From Roseococcus sp. SYP-B2431 (GTDB taxonomy: Bacteria; Pseudomonadota; Alphaproteobacteria; Acetobacterales; Acetobacteraceae): DNA of 64,000 bases. Position 1 is the stretch's first letter, and each line of letters starts with the position of its first letter. Location: contig NZ_SJXD01000025.1 in assembly GCF_004336745.1 (NCBI RefSeq), positions 1 through 64,000 on the forward strand, written 5' to 3'. Below the pieces are notes generated by a model. It saw only the letters and a program-made list of their open reading frames with translations, was not told the DNA's origin and did no database searches. The position numbers and the translations under genes are program-made. Below, in pieces: positions 31,340 through 40,366 of the stretch.

Positions 31340-32308
31340 TCACTCGATCTTGATGTCGAGCGCCCGCACCGGCTCTTCCCAGCGCGCGCGGTCTTCGGCG
31401 ATGAAGCGACCGAAGGCTTCGGGCGCATTGGTGCTGAGCACCGCTGCCTGGGCCCGGAACACCTCCATCACGGCCGGCACGCGCGTGGCCTCCGCGATGG
31501 ATTGGGCGAGCTTGTTGGCCGCCTCCATCGGCGTCCGCGCCGGGGCGAGCAGGCCGAACCAGTTGCCGCCCTCGACGGCGACTCCGGCCTCGCGCAGCGT
31601 CGGCACCTCGGGCAGCAGCGGCACGCGCTCCGCCGAGGAGACCGCCAGGAGCTTCACGCGCCCGTCGCGCGCGGCGGCCTCGGCGCCGCCGGCGGTGAGG
31701 AACATGCTGTCCACCTGGCCCGCGATGACGGCCGTGATGCCCGGCGCCTGCCCAGTAAAGGGCGCGTGCAGCGCCTCCAGGCGGGCGGAGCGGAGCAGCA
31801 GCTCCATCGTGAGGTGCGAGGTGCTGCCCACGCCCCAGGAGGCGAAGGAGACGCGGCCGGGCTGCGCGCGCAGCTTCGCGAGGAAGCCCGCGAGGTCGGT
31901 CACGCCCAGCCCCTGGTTCACCGCCAGCGCGAAGGGCGCGCGGGCGAAGAGGCTGACGGGCTGGAAGTCCGCCGGATTGTAGGCCAGCCGGCGATAGACG
32001 AGCGGGTTGATCGCATGGGTCTCGGCATTGCCGAGGATGAGCGTGTGCCCGTCCGGCGCCGAGCGCGCGACGAATTCCGTGCCCAGCGCGCCGGTCGCCC
32101 CCGGCCGGTTCTCCACCACGACGGGCTGGCCGAGCGAGCCCGGCATGTGCTGGGCCAGGGCGCGCATGACGACATCGGCCAGGGCGCCCGGCGGCCAGGG
32201 CACGATGATGCGCACGGGCCGGTCCGGGAAGGCGGCCAGCGCGGGCGCGGCGAGCGCGGTCGTGCCGGCCATCGTCAGCAGCGCGCGGCGGTTGATGTTC
32301 GTGCTCAT
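31340..32308 (-). CDS. Bug-family solute receptor
   Basis: 322 aa from ATG 32308 (MSTNINRRALLTMAG), whose ATGA overlaps the stop of the preceding dehydrogenase gene. The signal has RR and a hydrophobic stretch ending LAAFP, possibly Tat. Hallmarks: RIIVPWPPGALADVVMRAL, QPVVVENRPGATGALG, APFTGQAPGITAVIAGQVDS. The last residues (ALDIKIE) are the typical Bug C-terminus. Periplasmic binding of a carboxylate is expected. Coupling to a 3-hydroxyacid dehydrogenase suggests that uptake and oxidation belong together. Confidence 0.9.
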   Translation of the reverse strand: MSTNINRRALLTMAGTTALAAPALAAFPDRPVRIIVPWPPGALADVVMRALAQHMPGSLGQPVVVENRPGATGALGTEFVARSAPDGHTLILGNAETHAINPLVYRRLAYNPADFQPVSLFARAPFALAVNQGLGVTDLAGFLAKLRAQPGRVSFASWGVGSTSHLTMELLLRSARLEALHAPFTGQAPGITAVIAGQVDSMFLTAGGAEAAARDGRVKLLAVSSAERVPLLPEVPTLREAGVAVEGGNWFGLLAPARTPMEAANKLAQSIAEATRVPAVMEVFRAQAAVLSTNAPEAFGRFIAEDRARWEEPVRALDIKIE

Positions 32309-33201
32309 GGCTTCCTGATCTCCACCCCTGCCCAGTTTTCCAGGATCTTCGCGACGGACGTGAAGTCGCTCTCCTTGCCGTAGGTGGCCGCGGTGACGCC
32401 CAGCATCTGGAGCACCGCGCTGCCCACCAGCATCGGGACGCCCATCCCCTCGGCCTCGCTCACGCAGAGGCCGACATCCTTCATCGAGAGGCCCGTGGTG
32501 AAGCCGAAATCGAAGCTGCGGGGGATGACGGCGCGCGGGAACTTGTCCTGCGTCGCGGAGTTGCGGCCGCTGCTGGCGTTGATGACCTCGCACATCAGCG
32601 CGGGGTCGAGCCCGGCCTTCACGCCCATGGCGATGGCCTCCGACGAGGCGACCAGCGCCGTGGCGGCGAGCATGTTGTTGCAGAGCTTCATCACCTGCGC
32701 CGAGCCCGGCTTCTCGCCGCAGAAGAAGGGCTTGCCGAAGACCTTCAGCACCGGCTCCAGCGCGTCGTATTCGCCGCGTGGCCCCGAGACCATCAGCGCC
32801 AGCGTGCCGGCGGCCGCGCCGGATTTTCCGCCGCTCACCGGGCAGTCGAAGGTGGTGCGGCCCGCCTCGGCGAAGCCGGCGGCGACCTCGCCGGCGACGC
32901 GCGGGCCGGTGGTGGAGAGGTCCACGAAGCAGCGGGCCCGCTGGCCGGCGATCACGCCGTCCGGGCCCAGGGCCACGTCGCGCAGGATGGCCGGGGTGGG
33001 GAGGCTGGCAAAGACGAGGTCCGCGCGGTCGCCCACCTCGCGCGGGCTGGCCGCTTCGGTGGCGCCCTTTGCCACCAGCTCGGCGACGATGCCGGGCACC
33101 CGGTCGCAGACGACGACCTTGTGGCCGGCCTCGAGCAGCCGGGCCGCCATGCGGCTGCCCATCTGGCCGAGGCCGATGAAACCCAGAACTTCGTCCGTCA
33201 C
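32305..33201 (-). CDS. 3-hydroxyisobutyrate dehydrogenase-family NAD(P)-dependent oxidoreductase
   Basis: 298 aa, ATG. N-terminal Rossmann motif GFIGLGQMGSRMA (~6-18), substrate motif DCPVSGGKSGAAAGTL (~117-132), and the catalytic-Lys region KLCNNMLA (~172-179), all diagnostic for beta-hydroxyacid dehydrogenases. It should oxidise a 3-hydroxy or 2-hydroxymethyl acid. It is the first gene of a two-gene unit with the Bug receptor. A candidate LacI-type operator lies 75 bases upstream at 33276-33291, the most symmetric of three such sites. Confidence 0.9.
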   Translation of the reverse strand: MTDEVLGFIGLGQMGSRMAARLLEAGHKVVVCDRVPGIVAELVAKGATEAASPREVGDRADLVFASLPTPAILRDVALGPDGVIAGQRARCFVDLSTTGPRVAGEVAAGFAEAGRTTFDCPVSGGKSGAAAGTLALMVSGPRGEYDALEPVLKVFGKPFFCGEKPGSAQVMKLCNNMLAATALVASSEAIAMGVKAGLDPALMCEVINASSGRNSATQDKFPRAVIPRSFDFGFTTGLSMKDVGLCVSEAEGMGVPMLVGSAVLQMLGVTAATYGKESDFTSVAKILENWAGVEIRKP

Positions 33202-33275
33202 GCGCGGCTCTCCCTTTTAGCGATCCTTGGACGGCAGGGCTCTTCAAGCGGACCCGTGCGTCTGTTCACCTTGAA

Positions 33276-33291
33276 ATGATACCGATACCAT
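33276..33291. promoter_or_regulatory. Candidate LacI-type operator, site 1
   Basis: ATGATACCGATACCAT: a 16-base imperfect palindrome (six of eight half-site positions match) with a central CG, the general form of LacI/GalR-family operators. The 10-base core ACCGATACCA recurs upstream of two other genes of this island. It lies between the LacI-family gene and the dehydrogenase it probably controls, in an AT-rich patch. Confidence 0.6.
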
Positions 33292-33319
33292 AAACGCGGC
33301 GCGGGTCCTGTCCAGCCTG

Positions 33320-34339
33320 TCAGGTGCTGCCGCGATGGATGATCTCGAAGCGCAGATCCACCGATATGGCCGCGGAGGAGCGGCCCTGGATGCGGTCCAG
33401 CAGCACCTCGGCGCTACGCCGGCCGATCTCGAGCCGCGGCAGCTTGAGCGTGGTGACGGGCGGCACGAGATGGCCGAGCAGGTCGAAATTGTCGAAGGCC
33501 GCGATGGCGACCTTGCCGGGCACCGGCCAGCCGCGCCGCGCGCATTCCAGCGAGGCGCCCATGGCCAGCACGTCGCCGGCGAAGAAGATCGCGTCCGGAT
33601 GGCCGCCGCCCTCCATCAGCCGCAGCAGCGCTTCTGCCCCGGAGGCGAGGCCGGGCGGCATCTCCAGCATCAGCCGCGGGTCGAAGCCGTGGCCCAGCTC
33701 CTCCAGGGCCGCCTTGTAGCCGCGCTGGCGGTCGCGGCTGCGCTGGTTTGCGGAAGCGGGCAGGCTGACGAAGGCGATGCGCTGATAACCGAGCCGCGCC
33801 AGGTGCTGCGTCATGGCCCGGGACGCGTCGTGGTTCGAGTAGCTCACCACCATGTCGAGCGGCTCCGGCGTCAGCGTGCCGTTCTCCACCACCGGCACGC
33901 CGGAGCGCCGGATCATGCTCACCGCGTCGGGCGTGTGCGTGGTGTCGTGCAGGATGAGGCCCGCCACGCGCTGCTCCAGGAAGGCGCGGATCGCGGCTTC
34001 CTCGGCCTCGGCGCTGTAGCCGGAATCGGCGATCATGAGCTGGTGGTCATGCCGCCGCAGCACGTCGGAGATGCCCTGGATCGTGCTGGCGAAGAGGGAG
34101 TTCTCGATGCTCGGCACCACCAGCCCGATCACCTTGGACCGGCTGGAAGAAAGGCTGCCCGCGACCTTATTGGGCACGTAGCCCACGGCGGCCACCGCCT
34201 CGGCGACGCGGGCGCGAACCTCCGGCGAGACCTTGCCCGGATCCATCAGCGCGCGCGAGACGGTCATGGTCGAGACCTGCGCCACGCGCGCCACGTCGCG
34301 CATGCGGGCCGCGCCCCTGCGGGTATCGTCGAGGGCCAT
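33320..34339 (-). CDS. LacI-family transcriptional regulator (gluconate-regulator-like branch)
   Basis: 339 aa from ATG 34339. N-terminal helix-turn-helix MRDVARVAQVSTMTVSRAL (~14-32), hinge with YVPNKVAGSLSSSRS, then a periplasmic-binding-protein-like effector domain with GLVVPSIENSLF and FDNFDLLGHLVPPVTT. The branch resembles GntR of the gluconate operon rather than LacI itself; the ligand is probably an acid or sugar acid. It lies in the middle of an island of Bug receptors and dehydrogenases, and three copies of a shared palindromic core flank those genes, so it is the likely repressor of the island. Confidence 0.92.
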   Translation of the reverse strand: MALDDTRRGAARMRDVARVAQVSTMTVSRALMDPGKVSPEVRARVAEAVAAVGYVPNKVAGSLSSSRSKVIGLVVPSIENSLFASTIQGISDVLRRHDHQLMIADSGYSAEAEEAAIRAFLEQRVAGLILHDTTHTPDAVSMIRRSGVPVVENGTLTPEPLDMVVSYSNHDASRAMTQHLARLGYQRIAFVSLPASANQRSRDRQRGYKAALEELGHGFDPRLMLEMPPGLASGAEALLRLMEGGGHPDAIFFAGDVLAMGASLECARRGWPVPGKVAIAAFDNFDLLGHLVPPVTTLKLPRLEIGRRSAEVLLDRIQGRSSAAISVDLRFEIIHRGST

Positions 34340-34352
34340 CGGCAAGGCGCCG

Positions 34353-35117
34353 TCAGACGGCGCGGACCCAGCCGCCGTCCACGTCCAGGATCGCGCCCTG
34401 GACGTAGCTGGCGCCAGGCCCGGCCAGGAAGGCGACGATCTCCGCGATTTCCTCCGGCTCGCCGAAGCGCGCGACGCCGGTGTCGGCGGCCAGTGCCGCG
34501 GCGGCCTGCCCGGCGTCGAGGCCACGCTCCTTCATCACCGTCTCGATGCGGCCCGTCAGGCGATCGGTGCGGATGCTGCCCGGGTTCACGCAATTCACGC
34601 GCACGCCGTCCCGCACGCCGCGATCGGCCATGGCCTTGGTGAAGTTCATCAGCGCGGCATTGACCGATCCGCCGATGGTGAAGTCCGCGCTGGTGACGCG
34701 GCCGCCGACGCCCGCGATCAGCACGGCATTGCCCTGCGCCTTCACCAGATGCGGCCAGGCCGCGCGCAGCAGCCGCACCGCGCCGAAGAGCTTCAGCGCG
34801 TAGCCATCCTCCCAGGCGTCGTCGCCCAGCTTGAGGAAATCCCCCCGCTGCGTGGCCCCGGCGCTATGCGCGAAGATGTCGAGTTGGCCGAGCCGCGCGA
34901 CGGTCTCTTCCACCGCCTTCGCGCAGGATTCCGCGTCGCGCAGGTCGGCCGCGATGGCGATGGCGCCGCGCAGCTTCGCCGCCTCCGCCTGCAGCGCCTC
35001 GGCCGAGCGCGCGACCAGCGCCACCTGCGCGCCGCCCGCCGCCAGCCGCCGCGCGATCGCAAGCCCGATGCCGCGGCTCGCGCCGCTGACCAGCGCCACC
35101 TTTCCCGAAAGCGCCAT
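34353..35117 (-). CDS. SDR-family protein lacking the classical YxxxK motif
   Basis: 254 aa, ATG. Cofactor motif SGASRGIG (11-18) and a C-terminal GAILDVDGGWVRAV are those of classical short-chain dehydrogenases. However, the position of the catalytic Tyr and Lys reads SADFTIGGSVNAALMNF: where YxxxK is expected there is GGSVN. Atypical SDRs with this N-A-A-L pattern exist, so it may use another proton relay or be non-redox. It ends 13 bases before the LacI-family start and begins directly at the stop of the upstream Bug gene (no gap), so it is probably co-transcribed with both. Confidence 0.85.
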   Translation of the reverse strand: MALSGKVALVSGASRGIGLAIARRLAAGGAQVALVARSAEALQAEAAKLRGAIAIAADLRDAESCAKAVEETVARLGQLDIFAHSAGATQRGDFLKLGDDAWEDGYALKLFGAVRLLRAAWPHLVKAQGNAVLIAGVGGRVTSADFTIGGSVNAALMNFTKAMADRGVRDGVRVNCVNPGSIRTDRLTGRIETVMKERGLDAGQAAAALAADTGVARFGEPEEIAEIVAFLAGPGASYVQGAILDVDGGWVRAV

Positions 35118-36077
35118 CTATTCCATCCGGATATCGGCGGCCCGCACGACGCGGCCGATTTTGTCCACCTCCTCGCGCATGAAGCGCGCGAAGTCGTCGG
35201 CGCTGCCCGCGACCACCTCGGCGCCCATGTCGAGCAGCCGCGCGCGCTCGGCGGGCTGGGTGACGATGCTGTTCAGCCCCGCATTCAGCCGCTCCACGAT
35301 GGGCCGAGGGATCCCGGCGGGGCCGACGAAGGCGTACCACTCGTCGATCACCACGCCCGGCAGCCCGGATTCGGCGACGGTCGGCACGTTCGGCAGATAG
35401 GGCGCGCGCTGAGCCGAGGTCACCGCGATGGCCCGGAGCTGGCCGTCCCGCACGAAGGGCAGGGTGGAGCTGGCATTGCCGAACATGAGGTTGAGGTGCC
35501 CGCTCACCAGGTCGGTCAGCGCGGGTCCGCCGCCGCGATAGGGCACATGCGTCATCTCCACCCCGGCGGCCAGGGCGAACATGGCGCCCGCGATGTGCAC
35601 GGAGGTGCCGATGCCCGGCGAGCCGTAGGTGAGGCCGGGATTGCGCTTCGCATGCTCGACCAGGTCGCTCACCGTGCGGATCGGCGAGGACATGGGCACC
35701 ACCAGGATATCCGCCACCCGGGCCAGCAGCTGGATGGGCGTGAGGTCGCGCAGGGCGTCATAGGGCTGGCGGGAGATCAGCGTGGAGGAGATGACCGTGC
35801 TGATCACCATGCCGAAGGTGTGCCCGTCCGGTGCCGAGCGCGCGATCTCGACGGTGCCGATGGCGCCCGAGGCGCCGCTGCGGTTCTCGACCACCACGGG
35901 CTGGCCGAAGAGCTCGGACATCTTGGGCTGCAACTGGCGGGCCAGGATGTCGGTGGTGCCGCCCGGCGGGAAGGTCACGACGAGCCGTATGGGCCGCGAA
36001 GGAAATCCCTGCGCCGAGGCGAGGGGCGGCGCCGCCAGCGCCAGCCCGCTGCCCAGGAGGCCGCGTCTTCTCATCAT
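35118..36077 (-). CDS. Bug-family solute receptor (tandem copy 1)
   Basis: 319 aa from ATG 36077; AAGGGAAG lies upstream and a second ATG follows directly. Signal peptide with RRRGLLGSGLALA ending ASAQ. Hallmarks: RLVVTFPPGGTTDILARQL, QPVVVENRSGASGAIG, THVPYRGGGPALTDLVSGH. It is about two thirds identical by eye, with one single-residue gap, to the next gene upstream, so the pair arose by tandem duplication. Its stop abuts the SDR ATG. Confidence 0.9.
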   Translation of the reverse strand: MMRRRGLLGSGLALAAPPLASAQGFPSRPIRLVVTFPPGGTTDILARQLQPKMSELFGQPVVVENRSGASGAIGTVEIARSAPDGHTFGMVISTVISSTLISRQPYDALRDLTPIQLLARVADILVVPMSSPIRTVSDLVEHAKRNPGLTYGSPGIGTSVHIAGAMFALAAGVEMTHVPYRGGGPALTDLVSGHLNLMFGNASSTLPFVRDGQLRAIAVTSAQRAPYLPNVPTVAESGLPGVVIDEWYAFVGPAGIPRPIVERLNAGLNSIVTQPAERARLLDMGAEVVAGSADDFARFMREEVDKIGRVVRAADIRME

Positions 36078-36127
36078 TCTGTGCTTCCCTTTCGTTGACG
36101 GCCTCCCGCCTCCGGCGGGTTCGGCCG

Positions 36128-37087
36128 TCATTCCACCCGGATCCGCGCCTCGCGTACCACGCGGCCGATCTTCTCGACATCCTGGGCCATGAAGCTGGCG
36201 CAGTCCTCGGCCGTGCCGCCCACCACCTCGACGCCGAGGTCGAGCAGCCGCGCGCGCTCGGCGGGCTGGCCGACGATGCCCATCAGGGCCGAGTTCAGCT
36301 TCTCGACCGCCGGCGCCGGCATGCCCGCGGGGCCGAGGCAGGCGTACCACTCGTCGATGGCGAAGCCGGGCAGGCCGGATTCCGCGACGGTCGGCACGTC
36401 CGGCAGATAGGGCGCGCGTTGCGCCGAGGTGACGGCGATGGCCCGGAGTGAGCCGTTGCGCACAAAGGGCAGGGTGGAGCCGGCATTGCCGAACATGGTG
36501 TGGACATGGCCGGCGACCAGATCCGCCGTGGCCGGCCCGCCGCCGCGATAGGGCACGTGCACCATGTCCACATGGGCCATCAGCTTGAACATCTCGCCGG
36601 AGATATGCACGGCCGAGCCGAGGCCCGGCGATGCGAAGGTCAGCGCGCCGGGGCGCCGCTTCGCCGTGTCGATCAGGTCTTGCACCGATCGAATCGGCGA
36701 GGAGACGGGCACGGCGAGGATGTTCGCCACGCGCGCGATCAGCAGCAGCGGCGTGAAGTCGCGCAGCGGATCATAGGGCTGCCGAGTGAGCAGCGCGGCG
36801 GAGATCACCGTGCTCGTCACCATGCCGAAGACGTGGCCGTCATTGGGCGCGCGGGCGATCTCCGTCGCGCCGATGGCGCCCGAGGCGCCGCCGCGGTTCT
36901 CGACGACGACCGGCTGGCCCAGCGCGGCGGAGAGCGGCGGCTGGAGCTGGCGCGCGAGGATGTCCGTCGTGCCGCCCGGCGGCCAGGTCACGATCAGCCG
37001 CACGGGCCGGGAGGGAAAGCCTTGCGCCGAGGCCACCGCCGGCATCGCCAGCGCCAGTCCGGCGCCCAGGACGTCACGTCTTTTCAT
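36128..37087 (-). CDS. Bug-family solute receptor (tandem copy 2)
   Basis: 319 aa from ATG 37087. Signal MKRRDVLGAGLALAMPAVASAQ. Hallmarks: RLIVTWPPGGTTDILARQL, QPVVVENRGGASGAIG, VHVPYRGGGPATADLVAGH. It is the sister of the adjacent downstream gene: conserved blocks such as AIAVTSAQRAPYLP are identical, while the ligand-loop region around residues 150-185 differs more, as expected if the two bind different acids. It is 28 bases after the upstream SDR. Confidence 0.9.
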   Translation of the reverse strand: MKRRDVLGAGLALAMPAVASAQGFPSRPVRLIVTWPPGGTTDILARQLQPPLSAALGQPVVVENRGGASGAIGATEIARAPNDGHVFGMVTSTVISAALLTRQPYDPLRDFTPLLLIARVANILAVPVSSPIRSVQDLIDTAKRRPGALTFASPGLGSAVHISGEMFKLMAHVDMVHVPYRGGGPATADLVAGHVHTMFGNAGSTLPFVRNGSLRAIAVTSAQRAPYLPDVPTVAESGLPGFAIDEWYACLGPAGMPAPAVEKLNSALMGIVGQPAERARLLDLGVEVVGGTAEDCASFMAQDVEKIGRVVREARIRVE

Positions 37088-37115
37088 TGTTGCTGTCCTC
37101 CCGTGTTGCGTTCTT

Positions 37116-37907
37116 CTAGCTGGCCGACCAGCCGCCATCCATCGGGATCACGGAGCCGGTGATGTCGCGTCCCGCCTCGCCGCAGAGGAGCGCAGCCATG
37201 GCGCCTATCGCCTCGGCCGTGACGAAGCGGCCGCTGGGCTGCTTGCCGGCGAGGAAGCGGGCGCTGGCCGCCTCATGGTCGATGCCGGCGGAGTCCATCG
37301 TCGCGCGGATGCGGCTCTCGATATTGGGCGTAAGGGTGGAGCCGGCGCAGATGGCGTTGCAGGTGACGCCGCTCTGCGCCGTCTCCAGCGCGACGGCGCG
37401 CGTCAGGCCGATCAGCGCGGTCTTGGTGACGACGTAGCCGACGCGGCCGGTCGCGCCGATCAGCCCGTAGATCGAGGACATGTTGACGATGCGCCCCCAG
37501 CCGCGCGCCTTCATGCCGGGCAGGGCGAGGCGGCAGAGGTGGAAGGGCGCGGAGAGGTTGACCGCGAGGTCCTTCTCCCAATCCGCCCGCGGCGTCTCCT
37601 CGACGAGGCCGAAATGCCGGATGGCGGCGTTGTTCACGAGGATGTCGACGGGGCCGAGGCGCGCCATCATGGCCTCGATGCCGGCGGGATCGGCGAGATC
37701 GGTGGCGTCGAAGCGCGCCTGGACGCCCTGGCGCTCGATGCCGGCCAGGGACGGCGCGGCCTCCCCGGCGGAGGCGAGACCATGCAGGATCACGTCGCAG
37801 CCCTGGCTGGCGAGCGCCGTGGCGACCGCGAGGCCGATGCCGCCGACCGAGCCCGTGACGAGGGCGACGCGGCCGCGCAGGCCACTTCCGACCCGCGAGG
37901 ACGCCAT
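37116..37907 (-). CDS. Classical SDR oxidoreductase (3-hydroxybutyrate dehydrogenase-like)
   Basis: 263 aa from ATG 37907. An ATG 18 bases upstream (37925) is in frame but lies inside a candidate operator, so the inner start is preferred. Cofactor motif TGSVGGIG, NNAA motif, and catalytic YVVTK with Ser in IVNMSSIYGL, so it is a complete classical SDR. The C-terminal GSVIPMDGGWSAS and the substrate region AICAGSTLTPNIESR resemble 3-hydroxybutyrate or gluconate dehydrogenases. It heads the leftward operon SDR, Bug, Bug, atypical SDR, LacI regulator. Confidence 0.9.
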   Translation of the reverse strand: MASSRVGSGLRGRVALVTGSVGGIGLAVATALASQGCDVILHGLASAGEAAPSLAGIERQGVQARFDATDLADPAGIEAMMARLGPVDILVNNAAIRHFGLVEETPRADWEKDLAVNLSAPFHLCRLALPGMKARGWGRIVNMSSIYGLIGATGRVGYVVTKTALIGLTRAVALETAQSGVTCNAICAGSTLTPNIESRIRATMDSAGIDHEAASARFLAGKQPSGRFVTAEAIGAMAALLCGEAGRDITGSVIPMDGGWSAS

Positions 37908-37909
37908 TT

Positions 37910-37925
37910 CTGTGACCGATACCAT
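37910..37925. promoter_or_regulatory. Candidate LacI-type operator, site 2
   Basis: CTGTGACCGATACCAT contains the same ACCGATACCAT run as site 1 (11 identical bases) with a central CG. It sits three bases before the SDR start at 37907, where a bound repressor would block the ribosome binding site or promoter. The left half is less symmetric than in site 1. Confidence 0.5.
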
Positions 37926-37996
37926 CCATGGAAGCTAATCTGCGCAAAGGCTTTGCCGCAAGGCCGGTGCGGACGGGTTTACTGGGCAGAGGGTCT

Positions 37997-38012
37997 GCGT
38001 TACCGATACCAG
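37997..38012. promoter_or_regulatory. Candidate LacI-type operator, site 3
   Basis: GCGTTACCGATACCAG carries the same 10-base core ACCGATACCA in the same orientation as sites 1 and 2. It lies in the divergent gap, 45 bases before the Bug gene at 38057 and 87 bases from site 2. Two sites in one divergent control region would allow joint control of both operons. Confidence 0.5.
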
Positions 38013-38056
38013 GAATGGCGCGGCCCCGAGCCCGCGCGCTTCGGGAAGGGATCTCC

Positions 38057-39016
38057 ATGCTCGCCTCACGCCGATCGCTGGCCCTGGGCGCCGCGGTGCT
38101 CGCCGCTCCGGCCCTGGCCCAATCCTGGCCGCAACGCCCCGCGCGCCTCATCGTGCCCTATGCGCCCGGTGGCGGCACCGACGTCTTCGCGCGCGCCCTG
38201 GCCGAGGGGCTTCGGCCGCTGCTCGGCCAGCCGGTGCTGGTCGAGAACCGCGCTGGCGCGAGCGGCATCGTGGGCTCCGAGGTGGTGGCCCGCGCCGAGC
38301 CGGACGGCCAGGTCTTCCTCGTCGACACCGGCAGCCACGCGCTCAACCCCCATGTGATGCCGAGCCTGCCCTACAACACGCAGCGCGACTTCACGCCCGT
38401 CGCGCTGCTCTCGCGCTTTCCCATGCTGCTCGCGGCCGGCGCGACCCAGCCCTTCCGGACGGCGATGGAGCTCGTCGCGGCGGCGAAGGCGGCGCCCGGC
38501 ACCATCGGCTTCGGCACCTCGGACGCGGCGATCTCCTATGCGGGGAACCTCTTCGCGCGGCTCGCGGGCATCCAGATGGTGGAGGTCTCCTACCGCGGCG
38601 CCGGACCCATGCTGAACGACCTGATCGCGGGCCATCTGCCGACGAGCTGGAACAGCACCGTCGCGGCCCTGCCGCATATCCAGTCCGGCCGGATCCGCGC
38701 GCTCGGCGTCTCGACCAGGGAGCGGACGGCGCTGCTGCCCGAGGTGCCCACCCTCGCGGAGGCGGGAATCGCCGGCTACGAGTTCGCCGGCTGGTACGGG
38801 ATGCTGGGCCCCGCGAACCTGCCCACTTCTATCGCCGCACGGATGGGCGCCGCCATCGAGGAGGCGCTGCGCGACCCCGCCATCCGCCAGCGCCTGCTGG
38901 GCATCGGCGCCGACCTCAAGCCGCTGGGGCCCGACGAGTTCCGCACCTTCCTCGGCGAGGAGGAGGCCCGCTGGTCAAGGGCCGCGCGCGAGGGTCTGAT
39001 CGTCCGCGCGCAATAG
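38057..39016 (+). CDS. Bug-family solute receptor
   Basis: 319 aa from ATG 38057, with GGGAAGGGA seven bases upstream. Signal MLASRRSLALGAAVLAAPALAQ. Hallmarks: RLIVPYAPGGGTDVFARAL, QPVLVENRAGASGIVG, VSYRGAGPMLNDLIAGH. It is only distantly similar to the leftward tandem pair, so it binds something else or came separately. It is divergent from the SDR operon across two candidate operators and 12 bases ahead of the MmgE/PrpD gene, so receptor and enzyme form a unit. Confidence 0.9.
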   Translation: MLASRRSLALGAAVLAAPALAQSWPQRPARLIVPYAPGGGTDVFARALAEGLRPLLGQPVLVENRAGASGIVGSEVVARAEPDGQVFLVDTGSHALNPHVMPSLPYNTQRDFTPVALLSRFPMLLAAGATQPFRTAMELVAAAKAAPGTIGFGTSDAAISYAGNLFARLAGIQMVEVSYRGAGPMLNDLIAGHLPTSWNSTVAALPHIQSGRIRALGVSTRERTALLPEVPTLAEAGIAGYEFAGWYGMLGPANLPTSIAARMGAAIEEALRDPAIRQRLLGIGADLKPLGPDEFRTFLGEEEARWSRAAREGLIVRAQ

Positions 39017-39028
39017 GAGGGAATCGAC

Positions 39029-40366
39029 ATGAGCACGGGTTTCGCCAGCGAGGTGCTGGGCCGCTTCGTCGCGGAGTCGCGGTGGGACGACATCGCGCCC
39101 GTGCTGCGGCAGGAGGCGAAGCGCTCCATCCTGAACAATCTGGGCTGCGGGCTCGGCGTGGCGAAGGATCCGGCGGTGACGACGGCGCTCGCCGTGATGC
39201 GCAACTTTTCCGGCGCGCCGGTCGCCACCGTGATCGGGCAGGGCGTGAAGCTCGACCCGATGGCGGCGTCCTTCGTGAACGCCATCGCCTGCAACCTGCT
39301 GGATTACGACGACACGCATCTCCAGACGGTCATCCACCCGACCGCGCCCGTGGCGCCGGCGCTTCTCGCGCTGGCCGAGCAGCGCGGCTTCCCGGGCGCG
39401 GCCGTGCTGCACGCCTTCCTGCTGGGCGGCGAGGTGGAGTGCCGCATCGGCAACGCCGTCTCGCCGGGGCATTACGCGCGCGGCTGGCATATCACCTCCA
39501 CCTGCGGGACCTTCGGGGCGGCGGCGGGCTGCGCGAAGCTGCTCGGGCTTTCGGCCGAGCAGACGGCGCATGCCATCGGCATCGCGGCCTCGCAGGCGGC
39601 GGGCCTCGTCGAGAACCTGCCGACGGCGGCGAAGAATGTCGGCGTCGGCAATGCGCCGCGCAACGGCATCCTGGCCGCGCTGCTGGCCGAGCAGGGCTAC
39701 AAGGCCGCGCCGGCCTCCATCGAGGGGCCGCTCGGCTTCGCGCGCGCCACGGGCGACGCGCCGGACCTTGCGCAGATCACGGAGGGGCTCGGCGCCCGCT
39801 GGGAGATCGCGCGGAACACCTACAAGCCCTATCCGGCCGGCATCGTCTTCCATGCCGTCATCGATGCCGCCCTCGCACTCCGCGAGGAGCTGAGCGCCGC
39901 GCCGGATTCCATCGCCTCCGTCACCGTCGCCGGCGATGCGCTGCTGCTGGCCCGGGGCGACCGCGTGGTGAACAACGAGCGTGACGCGCGTGTGAGCATC
40001 CACCACGGCGCCGCGCTCGGGCTGGTGCGCGGTCGCGCCGGTGTGGCGGATTTCGAGATGCCGGCGGTGACCGATCCCGCCCTGGCCGCCTTCCGCGCCA
40101 AGGTGGCGGCGAAGCTGGACGAATCCCTGCCGCGCGGCGCCGCGAGGGTCACGCTGCGCCTCGCGGACGGCCGCGAGTTCCAGCGCACGGTCCTCCATCC
40201 GCGCGGCAGCTTCGAGCGGCCGATGAGCGATGCGGAGCTGGAGGGGAAGTTCCGCGACAATGCGGCGATCGGCGGCTTCCACGCCCGCGCGGATGCGGGC
40301 ATCGCGGCGCTCTCGGGTCTGGACGGCGCGCCCGACGTGACCCGGCTCATGGCCAGCCTGGCTTAG
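39029..40366 (+). CDS. MmgE/PrpD-family protein
   Basis: 445 aa, ATG with TAGGAGGGA upstream. Family features: LGVAKDPAVTTAL, NAIACNLLDYDDTH near residue ~90 (the conserved Asp-rich stretch of PrpD-like enzymes), and HITSTCGTFGAAAGCAKLLGLS. Members include 2-methylcitrate dehydratase, cis-aconitate decarboxylase and iminodisuccinate epimerase. Coupled to a Bug receptor, it probably dehydrates or decarboxylates an imported di- or tricarboxylate. The exact reaction is not deducible. It converges with modC after 13 bases. Confidence 0.9.
   Translation: MSTGFASEVLGRFVAESRWDDIAPVLRQEAKRSILNNLGCGLGVAKDPAVTTALAVMRNFSGAPVATVIGQGVKLDPMAASFVNAIACNLLDYDDTHLQTVIHPTAPVAPALLALAEQRGFPGAAVLHAFLLGGEVECRIGNAVSPGHYARGWHITSTCGTFGAAAGCAKLLGLSAEQTAHAIGIAASQAAGLVENLPTAAKNVGVGNAPRNGILAALLAEQGYKAAPASIEGPLGFARATGDAPDLAQITEGLGARWEIARNTYKPYPAGIVFHAVIDAALALREELSAAPDSIASVTVAGDALLLARGDRVVNNERDARVSIHHGAALGLVRGRAGVADFEMPAVTDPALAAFRAKVAAKLDESLPRGAARVTLRLADGREFQRTVLHPRGSFERPMSDAELEGKFRDNAAIGGFHARADAGIAALSGLDGAPDVTRLMASLA

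Follow-up and report, generated by a model that had tools for sequence, protein, structure and literature searches.

Who reads the three copies of one short sequence that lie in a gene island of Roseococcus sp. SYP-B2431, and what would be switched by reading them? The island spans positions 31340-40366 of a 64,000-nucleotide stretch (contig NZ_SJXD01000025.1, positions 1 to 64,000; the window). By Pfam matches, its proteins comprise four TctC-family (Bug) receptors, a 3-hydroxyisobutyrate-dehydrogenase-type protein, two short-chain dehydrogenases (SDRs), an MmgE/PrpD protein and a full LacI-family regulator. The original prediction held that this regulator controls three units, namely dehydrogenase-Bug1, the SDR1-Bug3-Bug2-SDR2-lacI operon that would include its own gene, and Bug4-MmgE, and thereby links uptake and oxidation of one acid or a few related acids. 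Comparative analysis supports control of all three units, since a LacI-type operator candidate lies at each and recurs at the same place in relatives. On sequence evidence, we consider it highly probable that the LacI protein encoded at 33320-34339 is a local, autoregulating repressor of these units.

A shared predicted operator motif in the island and its relatives

The 10-base core ACCGATACCA lies on the plus strand at 33281-33290, 37915-37924 and 38002-38011, each time upstream of an island gene and nowhere else in the window, exactly as the original prediction placed it; shuffled windows contain it 0.02 times on average (100 shuffles). The genome (4,709,178 bases, 31 contigs) holds six copies. 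Many copies inside genes elsewhere had been named in advance as grounds for doubt, and the scan returned only the three non-island copies, all within long open reading frames (ORFs): by eye, with no family search run, a topoisomerase IB-like gene, a gene with an SGGLDS motif and xseA.

The motif is best written TGNTANCGNTANCA, an even palindrome of the LacI type with a central CG. As a sequence pattern it has the features of a LacI/GalR operator, being an even palindrome centred on CG and close to the genes it would regulate. The first site had been described as a 16-base palindrome; its central CG stands, but the pairing is imperfect (12 of 16 bases). With up to one mismatch allowed, TGNTANCGNTANCA is found three times in the window, where 0.14 occurrences are expected:

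33277..33290, no strand assigned: predicted operator site 1, TGATACCGATACCA, exact match, upstream of the dehydrogenase-Bug1 unit
37911..37924, no strand assigned: predicted operator site 2, TGTGACCGATACCA, with a single mismatch, lying over the transcription start predicted for the SDR1-Bug3-Bug2-SDR2-LacI operon
37998..38011, no strand assigned: predicted operator site 3, CGTTACCGATACCA, with a single mismatch, which overlaps the -10 box predicted for the Bug4-MmgE unit

Genome-wide, the same scan finds seven places, these three and four others, whereas a reversed control pattern finds 89; base steps differ between the two patterns, making the control a rough yardstick only. Exact matches number one for the motif (site 1) and two for the reversed control. 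The distribution is thus that of a local regulon, with three of seven places within 4.7 kb of island sequence and one at the predicted promoter of an operon ending in lacI.

Comparing the corresponding regions of relatives had been proposed as a check, and it bore the sites out. The sample comprised 299 genomes from the family, counting that of the window; 35 carry a LacI match at E ≤ 1e-60. Stretches were taken around the 25 best LacI matches (of 41) after the window's own; the window plus the 22 stretches with at least 59% identity gave 23 loci (372,585 bases, 59-100% identity). These contain 58 sites at up to one mismatch, 27 of them exact, and the true half-site ranks first of 1260 permutations (mean 2.9; none of the 11 others with this shape exceeds 4). 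Nearly all sites (55 of 58) fall within 330 bp upstream of an island-gene start, and none of the 58 lies inside the matched stretches of nine gene families. Every SDR1 gene has a site no more than 330 bp upstream (23/23), as do 13 of the 20 loci that possess the dehydrogenase gene, which is missing in three. The three loci left out of the set at 45-53% LacI identity (L059-L061) hold two one-mismatch places in total.

Two arrangements recur in the divergent region between SDR1 and Bug4. A second clade (L051-L055, L057) has a single exact palindrome there, in contrast to the two imperfect operators of the other group. Sites 2 and 3 are 86-87 bp apart in 11 of the 13 two-site loci and 77 and 89 bp apart in the remaining two. 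Helical phasing or looping between these sites was considered and dropped, as fixed promoter elements on either side explain the spacing equally well.

Across the loci examined, presence of the sites tracks presence of a lacI gene within the cluster. MmgE matches occur in 51 genomes, and we scanned 30 of these loci in stretches of 3.0-4.3 kb. Where the genome bears LacI, 12 of 14 loci (counting that of the window) have sites; where it has no LacI match at the above threshold, none of 16 does (Fisher p = 1e-6, not corrected for kinship). Absence of the sites in relatives that keep the gene order would have told against the prediction. Such absence was seen, at one mismatch, in four clusters with the same divergent order (G186, G245, G063 and G138), all of which lack a LacI ortholog in the stretch and therefore support the link between sites and LacI. 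G186 and G245 are genomes without a LacI match from genera with LacI-bearing members; their SDR1 and MmgE genes are still divergent, and no exact site occurs anywhere in either genome. The divergent regions of the G245, G063 and G138 clusters contain nothing at up to three mismatches.

Promoter-like elements and the proposed mode of control

How the sites might act can be judged from promoter-like elements in the divergent region:

37956..37961, minus strand: -35-like hexamer TTGCGG of the SDR1 operon, with its place relative to the operator kept in 14 of 15 loci
37932..37937, minus strand: -10-like hexamer TAGCTT of the same operon, at a spacing of 18 bp from that -35
37978..37983, plus strand: -35-like hexamer TTTACT of the Bug4-MmgE unit, with a like hexamer in 13 of 13 two-site loci
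38001..38006, plus strand: -10-like hexamer TACCGA of the Bug4-MmgE unit, inside operator site 3 and 17 bp from the -35

Among the 15 loci whose LacI is at least 74% identical, 14 have TTG-18-TA with its two parts 37 and 13 bases ahead of the first base of site 2; at that fixed position, the average over 500 dinucleotide shuffles is 0.012 and the maximum 1. Outside the hexamers, the 60 bases before site 2 have a median ungapped identity of 33% (range 19-77%). Site 2 therefore begins at about the predicted transcription start. The arrangement is missing from the remaining eight loci, two of which have a pair at other positions. Upstream of site 3, all 13 two-site loci have a -35 of the TTTAC or TTGC type at a distance of 20-21 bases (shuffle mean 0.48, maximum 3); the associated -10 (TANCG) belongs to the operator motif, so only the -35 counts as independent evidence. 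Two of the 15 loci (L041 and L044) show one site only in the divergent region when one mismatch is allowed.

These positions suggest a simple repressor switch. A ligand-free dimer would bind TGNTANCGNTANCA, covering the predicted start point of the SDR operon at site 2 and the predicted -10 box of the Bug4 unit at site 3. RNA polymerase would thereby be excluded from both divergent promoters. We infer that binding and repression would be followed by induction, through release by a ligand that is probably an acid imported via these Bug receptors or its oxidation intermediate. With its predicted operators, the regulator would tie four Bug receptors, two SDRs, a dehydrogenase and an MmgE protein into one switchable unit, and this offers a simple route to the ligand: find what frees the repressor from its operator.

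The predicted control of the dehydrogenase is less uniform. Site 1 is present in all 13 loci where the dehydrogenase gene follows lacI on the same strand at 67 bp or more, including L055 (4.7 kb from lacI, two sites), and in none of the six with a gap of 1-64 bp. These six genes could therefore be read through from the site 2 promoter; five of them belong to one genus (g37), so they represent about two events. A seventh dehydrogenase gene without site 1 (L058) lies 6.9 kb away on the other strand. Relative to a dehydrogenase promoter pair, site 1 is upstream of the -35 in six loci and over a weak -10 in two, with no pair found in five, the window included; these pairs were counted without a shuffle control.

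An alternative is a dual regulator, one that represses the divergent SDR1/Bug4 promoters and activates or modulates the dehydrogenase promoter from upstream. The second clade (L051-L055, L057) fits such an arrangement, with a promoter-like pair 22-23 bp after the first base of site 1 and the operator centre near -51; the pair reads TTGTGC-17-TAGACC in four of these loci, TTGTCC-17-TAGACC in L055 and TTGCTT-18-TAGAAC in L051. However, L051 and L055 have additional pairs that lie over the operator or closer to it, in L049 and L050 the operator end is overlapped by a weak -10-like TATCAT, which is a repressing arrangement, and the window, L037, L038, L039 and L048 have no promoter-like pair near site 1. 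We regard dual action as unlikely.

Several observations weigh against repression of all three units by the island regulator. Sites 2 and 3 of the window each carry a mismatch, and the loci are related, so their counts are not independent. The 67-bp split was picked after seeing the data; a preset cut at 70 bp gives two genes with and six without a site below it, and 11 with and one without (L058) above it (p = 0.004). Around site 1 of the window no promoter of the form searched for turned up, and in the sister clade site 1 immediately precedes the -35, a position for which repression is not the mode one would first expect. The lacI-less G186 cluster keeps a three-mismatch remnant, GCGTATCGCTACCT, at the corresponding divergent place. 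G063 and G138 hold a LacI ortholog on another contig, yet their Bug3-SDR1-Bug4-MmgE cluster has no site; the SDR1 gene that adjoins their lacI does have one. The GntR motif reported for Pseudomonas plecoglossicida also differs (AG-N2-AGCGCT-N-TCT, in the portion of PMC12195362 drawn on), so similarity to GntR is not enough to predict the site. The relation of the regulator to the dehydrogenase promoter is the least secure part of our reading.

Could the sites belong to another regulator, with the neighbouring lacI a bystander? The genome does encode a second protein with a LacI helix-turn-helix (HTH), about 545 kb from the island copy on the same contig (C23:579087). However, it is 31% identical to the island regulator over the aligned part, its recognition helix differs (EATVSNAL versus TMTVSRAL), none of the seven genome motif places falls within its stretch (C23:570000-585000), and the sites accompany an island-type lacI in the same cluster. 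We judge this explanation very improbable. Chance, or neutral conservation of promoter sequence, is scarcely credible: site 3 does partly coincide with a -10 box that would be conserved anyway, and the G186 remnant retains its core, but the elements persist while the region before site 2 has diverged, the four lacI-less clusters lack any site at one mismatch, and permuted half-site patterns occur rarely.

Island genes and their distribution

The genes tied together by the proposed repressor are as follows:

31340..32308, minus strand: Bug1, TctC-family solute receptor (PF03401, 203 bits)
32305..33201, minus strand: 3-hydroxyisobutyrate-dehydrogenase-like oxidoreductase, GTG start (PF03446 and PF14833; best PDB sequence match 3cky, 2-hydroxymethylglutarate dehydrogenase)
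33320..34339, minus strand: LacI-family regulator, final gene of the predicted SDR1 operon (PF00356, PF13377)
34353..35117, minus strand: SDR2, short-chain dehydrogenase (PF13561, PF00106)
35118..36077, minus strand: Bug2, TctC-family receptor (PF03401, 251 bits)
36128..37087, minus strand: Bug3, TctC-family receptor (PF03401, 222 bits)
37116..37907, minus strand: SDR1, 3-hydroxybutyrate-dehydrogenase-like SDR (Pfam and PDB sequence match)
38057..39016, plus strand: Bug4, TctC-family receptor (PF03401, 191 bits)
39029..40366, plus strand: MmgE/PrpD-family protein (PF03972, PF19305; best PDB sequence match 2hp0, iminodisuccinate epimerase)

The regulator was correctly recognized as a LacI-family protein: an N-terminal LacI HTH (PF00356, 59 bits) and a Peripla_BP domain (PF13377, 109 bits) both score above their cut-offs, giving the domain make-up of LacI/GalR proteins. 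Small intergenic gaps suggest a single SDR1-Bug3-Bug2-SDR2-lacI operon, in which case site 2 would control lacI too. SDR1 probably starts at the ATG at 37907 rather than the one at 37925, because the predicted transcription start is at about 37924.

Naming substrates after the best PDB matches (2-hydroxymethylglutarate dehydrogenase, 3-hydroxybutyrate dehydrogenase, iminodisuccinate epimerase) was rejected as the matches are too distant. SDR2 has no PDB sequence match at a cut-off of 1e-35, and the MmgE/PrpD protein scores below the NCBIfam equivalog cut-off for 2-methylcitrate dehydratase PrpD (TIGR02330, 42.9 bits versus 458). For most Bug receptors we know of no assigned substrate. The genome encodes at least 150 of them (150 of 206 candidates scored, all 150 above the cut-off) against six TctA permease matches; the profile search found no TctA in the window. 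The island genes may together serve one acid or a few related acids, and the regulon probably belongs to an acid-uptake and oxidation island in the Acetobacteraceae.

The motif also stands beside other genes in relatives. In G216, G248, G278 and G239 a site precedes Bug1. G059 (L051) and G168 (L141) have one before a TauD-type dioxygenase gene (in G168 identified by eye). G005 has further sites before an operon resembling enoyl-CoA (coenzyme A) hydratase, CoA-transferase and thiolase genes and before a metallo-hydrolase gene, with more in the neighbouring stretch. These settings are consistent with a regulon that, elsewhere, would serve acid degradation via CoA esters.

Close copies of the regulator occur in records of Rubritepida, Plastoroseomonas, Rhodovarius, Humitalea and Roseococcus and in two Acetobacteraceae metagenome-assembled genomes. 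The window regulator is 87% identical to its closest other-genus copies (G216, G248, G278) and 74-75% identical to three same-genus copies; three further genomes of the genus have no LacI match. RpoB gives the opposite order: identity is 93-97% with four genomes of the same genus and 89% with four from other genera. From these identities, the island has probably moved between genera. A broader proposal would make the protein the core of an exchangeable Acetobacteraceae acid-degradation regulon, answering to a carboxylic acid or oxidation intermediate rather than a sugar and working in two modes, by blocking the divergent SDR/Bug promoters and activating the dehydrogenase from about -51; we think this rather unlikely.

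The second LacI gene of the genome (9076-10083 of L083, G000:C23:570000-585000) adjoins, by eye, Bug-like genes and a TauD-like dioxygenase gene, and its stretch also holds an autotransporter-like ORF; the surrounding inverted repeats (the 25 longest of 56) include no clear operator.

A wider regulon in the window genome was also considered, but none of the four other one-mismatch places was judged a member. The one in L068 lies in an oxidoreductase-like ORF (by eye), and that in L064 at the start of or inside an ORF. That in L063 (G000:C1:606252-606265) is a near-palindrome, TGTTGCCGGTAACA, 16 bp ahead of a small ORF that by eye resembles an antitoxin gene; it is probably unrelated to the island regulon and may be an autoregulation site of another kind. 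In L067 (around G000:C23:394789) the place is a chance motif match in or next to a direct-repeat array with the conserved unit GTCGCTCCCTCACGGGGGCGTGGATCGAAAC, variable spacers and a period of about 65, which resembles a CRISPR (clustered regularly interspaced short palindromic repeats) array.

Comparison with known systems

Which known regulon does the island most resemble? By protein similarity the regulator lies nearest the GntR/IdnR branch of gluconate and idonate repressors. Its best NCBIfam matches are there, all below the equivalog cut-offs: NF052440 (Pseudomonas GntR) at 299.5 versus 400 and NF011563 at 198.5 versus 433 for GntR, and NF047913 at 227.2 bits versus 500 for IdnR. The operator of the Escherichia coli-type GntR, given as ATGTTACCGATAACAG in the part of PMC10450161 used here, is the same kind of palindrome as the island motif. 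The neighbours differ: Bug receptors, SDRs and MmgE surround the island regulator, in place of the gluconate kinase and permease that are the usual GntR targets (PMC12195362).

By content, the island resembles clusters of Bug/TctC receptors with MmgE/PrpD and dehydrogenase genes, sharing four TctC proteins and one MmgE/PrpD protein and differing in having no TctA in the window. Among the matches listed in a search of open-access literature, titles and abstract openings described no LacI regulon with Bug, TctC or MmgE. Characterized LacI transcription factors mostly sense sugars, according to the abstract of PMC4052901, in whose main text (supplements apart) the terms 'tricarb', 'organic acid' and 'Rhodospirillales' were not found. 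Spacing between sites also differs, at 77-89 bp in the 13 two-site loci against peaks at 13, 22 or 32 bp in that paper. With the local LacI regulons catalogued there, the island shares the even palindrome with central CG, a small local regulon, predicted autoregulation and several sites in a divergent region. As a system it is probably an ordinary local LacI-type repressor regulon of a known kind.

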